DNA from: Clostridiaceae bacterium
GTDB lineage: Bacteria; Bacillota; Clostridia; DSM-8532
NCBI GenBank assembly: GCA_012839205.1
Contig: DUNT01000105.1
Coordinates: forward strand, 1-40,970
DNA length: 40,970 nt
Reading direction: 5' to 3'
Below, one piece after another: positions 24,367 to 29,189 of the stretch. Both the position numbers and the translations under genes were made by a program. The notes under the pieces are model-generated. The model made no database searches. It saw only the letters and a list, made by a program, of their open reading frames with translations, and was not told the DNA's origin. Numbering within the stretch: the first letter of the stretch is position 1; each line of letters begins with the position of its first letter.

Positions 24367-24827
24367 AGAATTAATTCTAAATGATTTTTTATATTGTTTT
24401 AAGCGTATTTCAATATAGCACAGACAAAAAACCATCCCCCTGTCTCATTTCTGATCAATGATACTCTCAAATTAACAACCCTTTAATCCTAATAGCAGTA
24501 CATGAGCGGTTGCACTATTTTTTTTCATTTTATTACAATATCTATGCTTGCACCTGTTAATTTATTAATAATATTCCTAATTTAAACAGGTGTTGTGAGC
24601 AAAATCATTTCCATTCAATCCCCTATAAATGTGGATATACCACCTTAAAAAAGTATATAGAAACAGCCTGATAAATCATTGAATTTTGTTGCTTAATATG
24701 TTACATTATAGCTTAAATGTAATATTATAGGAGGTTGTGTCATGTAAGTATTAAGTTTTTGGTAATTTCAGCAGATAAATATCTGCTGTTTCATTACAAC
24801 AATATTTTTTAAAAAAGGGTGATTAAA
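24367..24827. other. 461-bp intergenic leader before the secreted phosphoesterase
   Basis: No gene found. It holds an 8-bp inverted repeat CACCTGTT/AACAGGTG (24551-24592), a 7-bp one TTACATT/AATGTAA (24701-24722), a ribosome site GGAGG (24730-24734) followed 7 bases on by ATG-TAA (24742-24747), and the hairpin GCAGATAAATATCTGC (24771-24786). The last hairpin recurs before the second cohesin-dockerin gene. No c-di-GMP riboswitch core was recognised. Confidence 0.5.
24771..24786 (+). repeat. Leader hairpin, copy 1
   Basis: GCAGAT-AAAT-ATCTGC, a perfect 6-bp stem 42 bases before the phosphoesterase gene. The copy at 28101-28116 changes one base (A to G) and keeps pairing as G-U. Confidence 0.55.
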
Positions 24828-27653
24828 ATGAAGAAAGTAACAAGATTTTGGGCTATCCTCTGTTGCATTGCGATGATCATCCAGATGTTTACAATTGTTC
24901 CCGCAGTCGCCGCATCCGAGTCGGCAGAGGTTACCTATGAACTGTCCACCACAGTTGAAGCGGGCGAGAAGTACATAATCGTTTCCAATGGTTATGCATT
25001 AACAAATAAAGTTGCCGATGTCCCCTCTGCCAACGGCGGTGTTTCGCTGGCATCTACCGCCATTACCGTGACCGACGGCAAAATAACCTCTGAAGTCGCC
25101 GATGATATGATCTGGGACTTCGCTGAAGGGGCATCGGAGTTGGCCGGTCCCTACACTACAGGTTTCTTTATTACCAACGGTGACAGTAAGTACCTTTCCC
25201 GCGCCTCCAGCGGTGGAACGGGTGTTGCTCCTTTGAATACCTCCACCTATGATGCCACGAATGTTGCGTCAAAGCCCCATTATTGCTACTGGGCTTTCGA
25301 GGACATAAACGATGACGGCACCATCAAGAGCATGTTCCTGTTTAGTTCCAACTCCAGTGACTATGTATTTTTCCTGCGTGGTGCCGAAGCTGGCTTCGAC
25401 GCCCCTGGTGTTTCGCAGTCGAATATGGAATCCTCTCTGGCCAACTATCCAGTACAGCTCTACAAGGTGACGGAAGTAGGCGACCCAGACCCCATTGATC
25501 CTCCCCCTGTCACCACTTATGAACTGTCCACCACAGTTGAAGCGGGCGAGAAGTACATAATTGTCTCCAATGGTTATTCATTGACTAATAAAGTTGCCGA
25601 TGTCCCCACTGCCAACGGCGGTGTTTCACTGGCTTCAACCCTTGTAACCGTGTCCGACGGCAAGATAACTTCCGAAGTAACCGATGATATGATATGGGAC
25701 TTCGCTGAAGGGACCTCGGAGTTGGCCGGTCCCTATACTACAGGCTTCTTTATTACCAACGGTGACAGCAAGTACCTTTCCCGGGCCTCCAGCGGTGGAA
25801 CGGGTGTTGCTCCTTTGAATACTTCCACCTATGACGCCACCAACGTTGCATCAAAGCCCCATTATTGCTATTGGGCTTTTGAGGATATAAACGATGATGG
25901 CACCATCAAGAGCATGTTCCTGTTCAGTTCTGACCCCAGTGACTATGTGTTTTTCCTGCGCGGTGCCGAAGCCGGCTTTGACTGCCCAGGTGTTTCACAG
26001 TCGAATATGGAATCCTCTCTGGCAAACTATCCGGTACAGCTGTATAAGGCAACAGAAGCAAGTGATCCAGGCGATCCTGGAGATCCAGGTGATCCCGTGG
26101 TACGTCACGAGCTGCTCTTTATGTCCGATACACACTCAGACCTTACCGGCAGTGTGCCTAATTTTACTAACCTTCGCGCTATTCTGCCGCTACTGAAGGC
26201 AGAAAACATCAATCCGGAGGTGATTTCCTTCGGTGGCGACTATCTCTATGACGACATGGCTTACCTTGTCAACTGGGAGGAGGTCTACTCTATACTGACT
26301 GGTGTCCTCTCAACAACTTATCCCGACGCTGAATATGCCTTTACGACAGGTAACCATGATAAGGAAACTAACGGCGGTATAAGCGATGAGGAATTCAAGC
26401 GTATATTTGGATTTGACCGCGTCGGCGTCAGCTATGTTGGTGACGAGTATGAGATTTTCCATATCGGCGCGCAGGGTAACACCAGCGGCGTTGACAAGGA
26501 ATTGTTCTATGAGGACGACATACAAGCCCTTGACACCTATCTGGCCGGAAAGGTCGGCTCAGGAAAGGTAATCTTCATCCAGACCCATTGGCCTTTACAC
26601 CGTGCCTACAACTGGCAGTGGCGCAACATAGAAAATGCCGACTTGATGATTGATACTATTAACAAATACGGCGACAATCTCGACATTGTGTTCTTGTGGG
26701 GACACAACCACTATACAGATACCAATCGTCACACCATCAAGCAGCGTGGCGACTCAATCCTCTATGCCGAAGAACAATACAAGACCATCAACTTCACCTA
26801 TGCCAATGTTGGCTGTATGAACGATTTTTACCCCACCCAAAAACCTTATAAAGAAACCACCGTTGGCCCGGCTGTCTGCCTGTCGGTTAACATCCTCAAC
26901 GACAAGCTGGTGTTCACCTATAACCGTCTGACAGATGGAAATACGGACAACCCGGTTCTTACCCACGACGCTAATATCACAATATCCGGGACTCTCTATA
27001 CCAACCCAGCCGTTGTCGAGATCCCATTGCTGAATCCTTTTGGCGACGACGAGCCTTCTGATGAATCAACCGTCTTCATAGAGGGTAGCCAACAAGTAAA
27101 ATCCGGAGAGAAATTCACATTGAATGTTATACTCAATAATTTTACCGAAGGTATATATGCCGGAGATATTATCCTAAAATACGATGACAGCCTTTTTGAG
27201 CTTAAGACTTACCATGAGACAGGTGATCTGGTTAATATTATAAATACTAAACAAGAACAGCCAGGAAGTATCAGGGTAATTCTTGCAACTGAAGGGACAG
27301 CGATAAACGAGGGCAGAGTTCCGCTTTTCACTATTGATTTTATAGCCAAGGATACCGCTGCCGGTGAGTCGGGTTCCTTTACAATTACAAAAGCAGACTT
27401 CGGTATAATGCCGGGTGGACTGGTATATTCAGCCTCGGGTACAGGTATAGATATACTTGTTGAAGCATCATGGGAAGCTGGAGATGTAAATAAAGACGGT
27501 GTTATAAACATTGGAGACCTTGCAATTTGTGCATACTACTATATGGTCAGTGAAGGAGATCCCAACTGGAGTCTTGCAAAATCATCAGATGTCAATAATG
27601 ATGGGATTATTAATATTATTGACCTTTCATTTATTGCACAACTAGTGTTATAA
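24828..27653 (+). CDS. Secreted calcineurin-like phosphoesterase with twin N-terminal repeats, cohesin and dockerin
   Basis: A 941-residue secreted protein. In order: signal peptide (1-30, FWAILCCIAMIIQMFTIVPAVAA); two nearly identical ~180-residue modules of unknown fold (about 35-216 and 229-410); a Gly-Asp-Pro linker; a metallophosphoesterase (about 425-720) with FMSDTHSD, SFGGDYLYDD, TTGNHDKE, IQTHWPLH and LWGHNHYTD supplying the two-metal ligands; a cohesin-like domain (about 746-878, VFIEGSQQVKSGEKFTLNV... YAGDIILKYDDSLFEL); and a dockerin (883-941) with two EF-hand-like loops, DVNKDGVINIGDLA and DVNNDGIINIIDLS. ATG 24828 is used; a GTG at 24819 overlaps the AAAGGGTG ribosome site. Codons up to about 27050 are visibly GC-richer than the rest. 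Probably cell-surface or cellulosome-linked; substrate unknown. Confidence 0.9.
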   Translation: MKKVTRFWAILCCIAMIIQMFTIVPAVAASESAEVTYELSTTVEAGEKYIIVSNGYALTNKVADVPSANGGVSLASTAITVTDGKITSEVADDMIWDFAEGASELAGPYTTGFFITNGDSKYLSRASSGGTGVAPLNTSTYDATNVASKPHYCYWAFEDINDDGTIKSMFLFSSNSSDYVFFLRGAEAGFDAPGVSQSNMESSLANYPVQLYKVTEVGDPDPIDPPPVTTYELSTTVEAGEKYIIVSNGYSLTNKVADVPTANGGVSLASTLVTVSDGKITSEVTDDMIWDFAEGTSELAGPYTTGFFITNGDSKYLSRASSGGTGVAPLNTSTYDATNVASKPHYCYWAFEDINDDGTIKSMFLFSSDPSDYVFFLRGAEAGFDCPGVSQSNMESSLANYPVQLYKATEASDPGDPGDPGDPVVRHELLFMSDTHSDLTGSVPNFTNLRAILPLLKAENINPEVISFGGDYLYDDMAYLVNWEEVYSILTGVLSTTYPDAEYAFTTGNHDKETNGGISDEEFKRIFGFDRVGVSYVGDEYEIFHIGAQGNTSGVDKELFYEDDIQALDTYLAGKVGSGKVIFIQTHWPLHRAYNWQWRNIENADLMIDTINKYGDNLDIVFLWGHNHYTDTNRHTIKQRGDSILYAEEQYKTINFTYANVGCMNDFYPTQKPYKETTVGPAVCLSVNILNDKLVFTYNRLTDGNTDNPVLTHDANITISGTLYTNPAVVEIPLLNPFGDDEPSDESTVFIEGSQQVKSGEKFTLNVILNNFTEGIYAGDIILKYDDSLFELKTYHETGDLVNIINTKQEQPGSIRVILATEGTAINEGRVPLFTIDFIAKDTAAGESGSFTITKADFGIMPGGLVYSASGTGIDILVEASWEAGDVNKDGVINIGDLAICAYYYMVSEGDPNWSLAKSSDVNNDGIINIIDLSFIAQLVL
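24934..25476 (+). repeat. Intragenic direct repeat, module 1
   Basis: Encodes TYELSTTVEAGEKYIIVSNG ... QLYKVTE. It is repeated at 25514-26056 (offset about 580 bases) with only scattered, mostly synonymous differences. Confidence 0.9.
25514..26056 (+). repeat. Intragenic direct repeat, module 2
   Basis: Second copy of the module, starting TYELSTTVEAGEKYIIVSNG and ending QLYKATE. The high identity implies a recent tandem duplication or continuing gene conversion. Confidence 0.9.
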
Positions 27654-27691
27654 CAGAGCTATTACTCTTTCTGATGAAATAGCTGTATATT

Positions 27692-27733
27692 TCTGGCAGA
27701 TGATCGTTCAGATTATCTGCCAGATTCATTTTA
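27692..27733 (+). terminator. Terminator after the phosphoesterase gene
   Basis: Stem TCTGGCAGAT/ATCTGCCAGA with a 13-base loop, then TTCATTTTA. The same hairpin, with two loop changes, follows the second cohesin-dockerin gene, so it was part of the duplicated unit. Confidence 0.75.
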
Positions 27734-27769
27734 GTATAGAGCAGTCCCATGTCGCACCCTGTCACAGTT

Positions 27770-27799
27770 TGTTGGGAAATAAAAGAATATTTCCCAACA
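27770..27799 (+). other. Strong hairpin upstream of the decayed membrane gene
   Basis: Perfect 11-bp stem TGTTGGGAAAT/ATTTCCCAACA with an 8-base loop and no T-run. Its function is unclear. Confidence 0.4.
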
Positions 27800-27814
27800 G
27801 AATTATATTTAGCT

Positions 27815-28058
27815 CAAAAATTTATAAACTTGCTAATATAGCCAGGACCACCCCATTCATACTTATTTGCTTATTTACCTATTTTATTTTTTATATATAC
27901 TGTTATTGTTATTTTGTTTTTGGGTACTATTTAGCTCGAAGGACTCTTTGCATTAGTAATAGTAAACCTTTAATGGAGGTGGTTGATTGTTTTAATATAG
28001 TTCAAGACTACATAAACATGTGATTAAAGCCGCTCATGCTGCTTGTTGTTTAAAAGAA
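27815..28058 (+). pseudogene. Decayed copy of the 7.3 kb membrane protein gene (N-terminal part)
   Basis: A translated stretch, LANIARTTPFILICLFTYFI, aligns with SAIIAKTFPFMLIRLLAYLV at the start of the membrane protein at 7328. Farther on, GTTCAAGACTACATAAAC and ATTAAAGCCGCTCATGC correspond to its VRDYINYMIKAAHVA segment, now out of frame with a TGA. Nucleotide similarity is visible over about 230 bases. The start codon, frame and all later segments are gone. It lies between the two related cohesin-dockerin genes. Confidence 0.7.
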
Positions 28059-28100
28059 TTGTATTGAAGTTATACAAGTCATTAAGATTTGATAATTATA

Positions 28101-28116
28101 GCGGATAAATATCTGC
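28101..28116 (+). repeat. Leader hairpin, copy 2
   Basis: GCGGAT-AAAT-ATCTGC, 41 bases before the second cohesin-dockerin gene. It is the counterpart of 24771-24786 with a pairing-preserving change. Confidence 0.55.
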
Positions 28117-28157
28117 TGTTTATTATAACCATATTACATCTAGAAAGGACGAACAAA

Positions 28158-28976
28158 ATGAAGAAAGTATCAAGAATCTGGGCTATCCTATGTTGTATCA
28201 CGATGATACTCCAAATGTTCACAGTCGTTTCGACAGTCTACGCTTCCGAATCGACCGAAGTTACCTATGACCTGACCACTAAAGTTGCCGACGTATCCAC
28301 TGCCTACGGAGATGTTTCGTTGGCCTCTACTGCCGTCACCGAGATTACATTGCAGAATTCTTATAGCAACGACGAGCCCTCAGATGACTCAACTGTCTTT
28401 ATTGAGGGTACTCAAAAAGTAGAACCCGGAGAAGAATTCACATTGAATGTTATACTCAATAACTTTACCGAAGGTATATATGCCGGAGATATTATCCTAA
28501 ACTATGATGATAGCCTTTTTGAATTTAAATCTTATGAACCAATAGGCGATCCGGATAAGTTTTTCTATATAAAACATGATCAGCCTGGAATTGTCAGGAT
28601 AATTTTTGCGACTGAAGGGATAGCGATTAACTCAGGCAGGGCTCCACTTTTTAATCTTAATTTTATATCGAAGGACACCGTTGCCGGTGAGTTGGGTTCC
28701 TTTACCATTGCAAAATCAGACTTCGGTATTATGCCGGGTAGCCTGGTATATTCAGCTTCAGGTACAGGTATTGATATACTTGTTGAAGAATCATGGAATG
28801 CCGGAGATGTTAACAATGACGGTGTGATAAACACTGGAGACCTTGCTATTTGTACATATTACTATCAAGTAAGTGAAGGAGATTTGAATTGGAGTCTTGC
28901 AAAGTCATCGGATGTCAATAATGATGGGATTATTAATATTGTTGACCTTTCATTTATTGCACAACTAGTGGTCTAA
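28158..28976 (+). CDS. Secreted cohesin-dockerin protein, internally deleted paralogue
   Basis: A 272-residue secreted protein. Signal peptide (1-30, KKVSRIWAILCCITMILQMF), then a 45-residue remnant of the N-terminal module of the phosphoesterase (TYDLTTKVADVSTAYGDVSL), then a cohesin-like domain (about 77-209, TVFIEGTQKVEPGEEFTLNV) and a dockerin (213-272) with DVNNDGVINTGDLA and DVNNDGIINIVDLS. Alignment with the 941-residue neighbour shows it lost one block inside module 1 and a second block running through module 2 and the phosphoesterase, keeping the junction NDEPSDDSTVF. The reading frame survived both deletions. ATG 28158 has AAAGGA 8 bases upstream; the frame extends upstream without a ribosome site. 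It may act as a small self-linking adaptor or be a relic. Confidence 0.88.
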   Translation: MKKVSRIWAILCCITMILQMFTVVSTVYASESTEVTYDLTTKVADVSTAYGDVSLASTAVTEITLQNSYSNDEPSDDSTVFIEGTQKVEPGEEFTLNVILNNFTEGIYAGDIILNYDDSLFEFKSYEPIGDPDKFFYIKHDQPGIVRIIFATEGIAINSGRAPLFNLNFISKDTVAGELGSFTIAKSDFGIMPGSLVYSASGTGIDILVEESWNAGDVNNDGVINTGDLAICTYYYQVSEGDLNWSLAKSSDVNNDGIINIVDLSFIAQLVV

Positions 28977-29055
28977 TTGAGCTATTGTGCTTTCTCGTGC
29001 TGAGGGTTCTGCGTTAATAGTTGGAGTAGTACAAAGTAAATAGAATATCATTAAT

Positions 29056-29097
29056 AAACTGGCAGATGGTCGTTTAGATTATCTGCCAGTTTTATTT
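29056..29097 (+). terminator. Terminator after the second cohesin-dockerin gene
   Basis: Stem AAACTGGCAGAT/ATCTGCCAGTTT with a 13-base loop followed by TATTT. It is homologous to the hairpin at 27692. Confidence 0.8.
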
Positions 29098-29189
29098 AAG
29101 ATCGAATATCATTTTTGTCCTCAAACCGTAATTTCTATCTGAAAAGCCTCTGGTATAATCCGGATTTTAACAGGTTCATATACTGTTAA

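Follow-up and report, generated by a model that had tools for sequence, protein, structure and literature searches.

The window analysed here is a stretch of 40,970 nucleotides from a Clostridiaceae bacterium (GenBank assembly GCA_012839205.1, contig DUNT01000105.1, positions 1 to 40,970 of the forward strand). It carries two neighbouring genes, called here the long and the short gene, whose products both end in a cohesin followed by a dockerin (Table 1). Alignment of the two shows that the short gene is, as far as can be judged from sequence, a paralogue of the adjacent phosphoesterase gene that was reduced by two in-frame deletions at short repeats. For both genes the aligned ATG codons, each preceded by a purine-rich ribosome-binding stretch, were taken as starts in place of the upstream GTG/TTG starts of the listed open frames. 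The signal peptide of the long protein was identified by reading its sequence, and the phosphoesterase motifs SDTH, GGDY, GNHD and GHNH were all found by reading its translation. The module of about 185 amino acids (aa) present twice in this protein matched no family at cut-off in Pfam or NCBIfam and no relative among the PDB sequences. In the short protein, a Pfam scan returned only Cohesin, Dockerin_1 and a sub-threshold EF-hand match, with neither Metallophos nor any other catalytic domain, and both calcium-loop sequences of its dockerin read as intact. The scrap of the phosphoesterase end that it keeps, STAVTEITLQNSYSNDEPSD, matches PAVVEIPLLNPFGDDEPSD of the long protein. Neither an SLH or other wall-binding domain nor a FIVAR domain before the dockerin was found by Pfam in either protein.

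Table 1. Features of the long and short cohesin-dockerin genes and their surroundings (bp, base pairs).
Feature	Position	Strand	Description
Leader palindrome, long gene	24769..24788	+	CAGCAGATAAATATCTGCTG; just upstream of gene; folds as hairpin
Long gene	24828..27653	+	941 aa: signal peptide, two ~185-aa modules, calcineurin-like phosphoesterase, cohesin, dockerin
Module 1	24933..25488	+	repeat module; 89.2% DNA identity to 25515-26070
57-bp block lost from short gene	24950..25006	+	AGTTG at both edges: 24953-24957, 25010-25014
~1950-bp block lost from short gene	25067..27016	+	covers the remainder of module 1, module 2 and the phosphoesterase; exact edges uncertain within a few bases
Module 2	25515..26070	+	second copy of ~185-aa module; absent from relatives, which show one module
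Phosphoesterase domain	26112..26711	+	PF00149 (Metallophos), residues 429-628, above gathering cut-off
Cohesin, long protein	27072..27395	+	PF00963, residues 749-856, above gathering cut-off
Mosaic cohesin segment (strands 4-5)	27201..27287	+	short copy and G001 of one type; long copy and G011/AS22 of the other
Dockerin, long protein	27477..27644	+	PF00404 (Dockerin_1), residues 884-939, above gathering cut-off; type I
Terminator-like hairpin, long gene	27692..27724	+	predicted fold
Leader hairpin, short gene	28099..28118	+	2 mismatches to the palindrome of the long gene
Short gene	28158..28976	+	272 aa: signal peptide, module-start and phosphoesterase-end remnants, cohesin, dockerin
Cohesin, short protein	28392..28700	+	residues 79-181; single PF00963 match above gathering cut-off
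Dockerin, short protein	28800..28964	+	residues 215-269; PF00404 (Dockerin_1) above gathering cut-off
Terminator-like hairpin, short gene	29056..29092	+	predicted fold

The two units were compared by local DNA alignment, since a global MAFFT protein alignment misplaced the signal peptide. Four blocks were recovered: 24746-24957 with 28076-28287 (78% identity), 25007-25071 with 28280-28344 (80%), 27009-27672 with 28332-28995 (83%) and the terminator block 27693-27734 with 29059-29100 (88%). A first-pass annotation of this DNA, made from the letters alone, had proposed a duplicated unit in which leader hairpin, signal peptide, cohesin, dockerin and terminator hairpin are common to both genes, and the alignment agrees with it, as the similarity also covers leader and trailer outside the cohesin and dockerin. 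Chance similarity was ruled out by 500 dinucleotide shuffles, in which the maxima were 36 and 33 against observed leader and trailer scores of 77 and 64. The annotation had further described two internal blocks lost from the second gene, the first with AGTTG at both edges, and a retained frame encoding only signal peptide, cohesin and dockerin; all this was recovered. The joint of the larger deletion carries an imperfect GCCRTYRYCGNGA repeat, and the lengths of both missing blocks are multiples of three.

Long-form homologues were found in three other genomes, G001 (L063/L097), G011 (L064/L098, cut by a contig end) and AS22 (L099), and no short copy stands beside them in the examined DNA. As only the long form occurs in these relatives, the short gene is the derived form and the change ran from long to short. 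Besides, the short gene still has the beginning of the module and the final phosphoesterase residues, which indicates an origin by shortening of a long ancestor; the reverse, an insertion into an ancestor that was short, is ruled out on the same two grounds. The second deletion had been described as running from module 1 across module 2 and the phosphoesterase. The loss of about 1.95 kb stands, but a passage across module 2 is not required, because the homologues in G001 and AS22 have one module (that of G011, its start cut off, also shows one) and the remnant in the short gene is about equally similar to the opening part of module 1 (80%) and of module 2 (79%). Synonymous divergence (dS) between modules 1 and 2 is 0.455 and that between the long and short genes is 0.41, and since these values are close, the doubling of the module in the long copy would be of about the same age as the gene duplication.

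Hairpin folds were predicted for the leaders and terminators of both genes. The leader palindrome could act upstream of both genes as an operator or as a leader RNA hairpin. Allowing up to 3 mismatches, just these two copies were found genome-wide, so that a wider operator or regulon is unsupported.

The cohesins of the pair are 73% identical and the dockerins closer still, yet the short cohesin, from its sequence, is not simply that of the parent. Within 27201-27330, 14 of 16 informative sites support a mosaic grouping, against 2 of 22 outside it, and none of 5000 label permutations reached this. In the mosaic segment, of about 90 bp, the short copy groups with G001 at 100% bootstrap, and the 3' flank of the short gene resembles, by reading, that of the G001 gene. 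Its placement on cohesin strands 4-5 comes from a weak AlphaFold model (mean pLDDT, the predicted local confidence, 48 and 44 in the single-chain models of the pair, made with 5-6 sequences). Strand 5 is part of the 8-3-6-5 sheet that binds dockerins (PMC5429695), and the cohesins of the pair may differ in specificity. Recombination or transfer would explain the segment, as would an old duplication with gene conversion elsewhere. The four loci (the window pair, G001, G011 and AS22) each have different neighbours. AS22 comes from a different family within the class (it is G185, linked to L099 by a 482-aa frame and by coordinates), and its copy is as similar as copies within the genus, which suggests horizontal spread, with misbinning as a caveat. 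In the same locus (L099 5262-7503) the long-gene homologue shows an apparent frameshift in the phosphoesterase.

We looked for further cohesins and dockerins in the genome, an assembly of 2.31 Mb in 133 contigs that is 99.7% complete, and found 11 matches to each. Apart from the window pair and a protein on C80, cohesin and dockerin lie together at the C-termini of large frames, those on C84 and C113 being cut by contig ends. Outside the pair, a dockerin occurs at nine loci, and a cohesin was detected at eight of these. FIVAR lies between cohesin and dockerin in all six proteins scanned with Pfam (C82, C50, C22, C65, C3 and the C113 fragment), four of which are GH3 or GH43 enzymes; the C17 and C34 proteins look like GH3 by reading. 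No multi-cohesin scaffoldin was found in these contigs, as no two of the 11 cohesin matches share an open frame. A cohesin-SLH anchor was not found either: the genome has SLH proteins, none with a cohesin among those read. Searched with an SLH-linked cohesin, G017, G018, G023, G029 and G052 gave clear matches and the window genome (G000), G001 and G011 none, the single weak match in G000 being the C82 enzyme. In the same family, a compact anchored system of three adjoining genes, encoding a cohesin-dockerin enzyme, an Fn3-cohesin-Fn3-dockerin protein and a cohesin-SLH protein, occurs in G029 (L065 2092-9605) and in G018 and G023 (L066 and L067, respectively, G018 by coordinates) and is lacking in the window genome.

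In 32 genomes of the family, no frame smaller than the short gene has a near-complete cohesin match, and in shorter frames the matches are partial. An enzyme-less protein with signal peptide, cohesin, helical spacer and dockerin, the dockerin match falling just below the Pfam cut-off, is encoded by G052 (L062 658-1698, C84), a genome of the class outside this family that also encodes cohesin-dockerin enzymes and an SLH-cohesin anchor. Of the solved cohesins, those of Clostridium perfringens enzymes are nearest in sequence and rank among the nearest in fold: the NagJ cohesin was matched by the profile of this genome's cohesins with an E value of 4.8e-12, and the fold comparison gave a TM (template modelling) score of 0.70 with 2vo8, normalised by target. 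A plasmid link of the pair was dropped, since the only plasmid hits were to distant Paenibacillus, the best being a Paenibacillus guangzhouensis plasmid protein.

Judged by its domains, the short protein has a known architecture and belongs to a kind of scaffold-less system that is known but has seen few tests, and its visible origin and mosaic cohesin are the interesting parts. The 'minimal adaptor' of the first-pass annotation fits the published class of monovalent adaptor scaffoldins, with one dockerin and one cohesin (PMC11557425), and does so in the strict ScaC-like sense: exactly one cohesin, a dockerin alongside and no catalytic domain. ScaC is a small cohesin-dockerin scaffoldin whose dockerin binds a scaffoldin and whose cohesin binds other proteins (PMC3197198). 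Like ScaC and ScaH of Ruminococcus flavefaciens, the short protein is small and secreted and has no enzyme. However, those two operate in a cellulosome that includes multi-cohesin scaffoldins and an anchor linked by sortase, whereas neither the multi-cohesin scaffoldin nor the cohesin-SLH surface anchor of a cellulosome was found in the window genome; a further difference is that the descent of the short protein from the enzyme gene next to it can still be seen. In P. guangzhouensis, 28 proteins each carry a single dockerin-cohesin pair, many of them alongside a glycoside hydrolase, and there are five SLH anchors (PMC11557425). There, as here, dockerins occur almost only beside one cohesin in the same protein, often on hemicellulases, but the five SLH-anchored cohesin proteins have no counterpart found in this genome. 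In C. perfringens, as PMC12997984 describes it (citing Adams 2008), single cohesins and dockerins on enzymes form pairwise complexes in which the cohesins bind enzyme dockerins. The likeness lies in single modules on enzymes, no multi-cohesin scaffold and related, X82-type cohesins; the difference is that there cohesin and dockerin are mostly on separate enzymes (PMC12997984), whereas nearly every protein here has both. Unlike the FIVAR-dockerin enzymes of C. perfringens, the window pair has no FIVAR before the dockerin, although the other enzyme cassettes of the genome do.

Our preferred but tentative reading, resting on gene content and alignment, is that this deletion-derived paralogue most likely acts as a secreted, non-catalytic monovalent linker in a scaffold-less complex. 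Its dockerin would plug into the cohesin of another secreted cohesin-dockerin protein of the same bacterium and its cohesin would accept a further dockerin, so that enzyme chains would be lengthened or joined; the cohesin segment that differs from the parent may give it another partner. Candidate partners exist in the other cohesin-dockerin proteins of the genome, most of them GH3/GH43 enzymes with FIVAR in between, and the nine other dockerin-bearing loci make the partner set wider than the first-pass annotation assumed. A fixed intramolecular clasp is disfavoured, since relatives differ greatly in the spacer that joins cohesin to dockerin, which can be a few residues, a FIVAR domain, or Ig-like or Fn3 domains. 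The same annotation had spoken of a surface system. This found no support, because neither protein has a wall-binding domain, nor was an SLH-cohesin anchor found in the genome, though relatives have one.

The short gene is likely, though not proven, to have been retained for function. Over cohesin and dockerin the pairwise ratio of nonsynonymous to synonymous rates (dN/dS) between long and short genes is 0.33, a value that mixes both branches. Several observations weigh against a selected linker. Outside the mosaic segment, changes unique to the short copy were 16 nonsynonymous to 6 synonymous (N:S), against 5 to 11 in the long gene (p = 0.02 by Fisher's test). Neutrality would predict a ratio of about 2.9, so that the short copy is near neutral and clearly looser than the long one. 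In addition, the short copy occurs in one sampled genome only, and its cohesin is only 25-31% identical to the genome's cohesins outside the pair, for which reason cross-binding to the FIVAR enzymes is uncertain. The first two points, together with the persistence of leftover module and phosphoesterase scraps, would agree with a decaying remnant of a duplicated enzyme gene, still open by chance and with no selected role. We regard such decay as a genuine rival, though the less likely reading. The unique-change count is biased upward for all branches, at conserved sites, and relatives also score 1.4-2.4. Both deletions left a reading frame of 272 codons unbroken, for which the chance would be 1 in 9 were they independent, and the absence of stops would have a chance of roughly 0.09-0.25 without constraint, for 40-70 substitutions. 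The signal peptide, start, hairpins and calcium loops were all kept as well.

The linkage first proposed for this locus was that the dockerin would enter a cohesin carried by another molecule of its own kind or by the long neighbour, the pair making its own chains. The closeness of the two cohesins and dockerins favours this, and there is a natural precedent, as the ScaH dockerin of R. flavefaciens recognised its own cohesin (PMC5301203). However, strands 4-5 are where the two cohesins diverge most, and given the wider partner set self-linking is only one option that nothing here singles out; we consider it improbable. It is very unlikely that the cohesin-like domain is no dockerin binder and that the pair instead has some other function, for instance in stability or in the binding of substrate. 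Proteins with a cohesin-like domain but no dockerin do exist, such as the C80 protein, which has similar frames across the genus, but nearly every protein of this set has both domains, the two are equally numerous, and all aligned cohesins retain the YAxD motif of strand 3. The C80 protein itself (L030 4450-7749) is a secreted protein of about 1100 aa, by eye possibly a phosphodiester glycosidase; cohesin-bearing frames of similar size occur in several genomes of the genus.

If the short protein does act as a linker, the locus may record the traceable birth of an adaptor scaffoldin, in which an enzyme gene was duplicated, lost its enzyme by two in-frame deletions and had its partner changed by an exchange in strands 4-5, all in a bacterium that builds scaffold-less enzyme chains. 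This full sequence of events is a doubtful scenario. The genome adds a case of cohesin-dockerin enzymes with neither a scaffold nor a visible anchor. Adaptor scaffoldins are known but their origin is seldom visible, and here parent and derivative stand side by side, which makes it testable whether the loss of an enzyme with both connectors kept creates a working linker.

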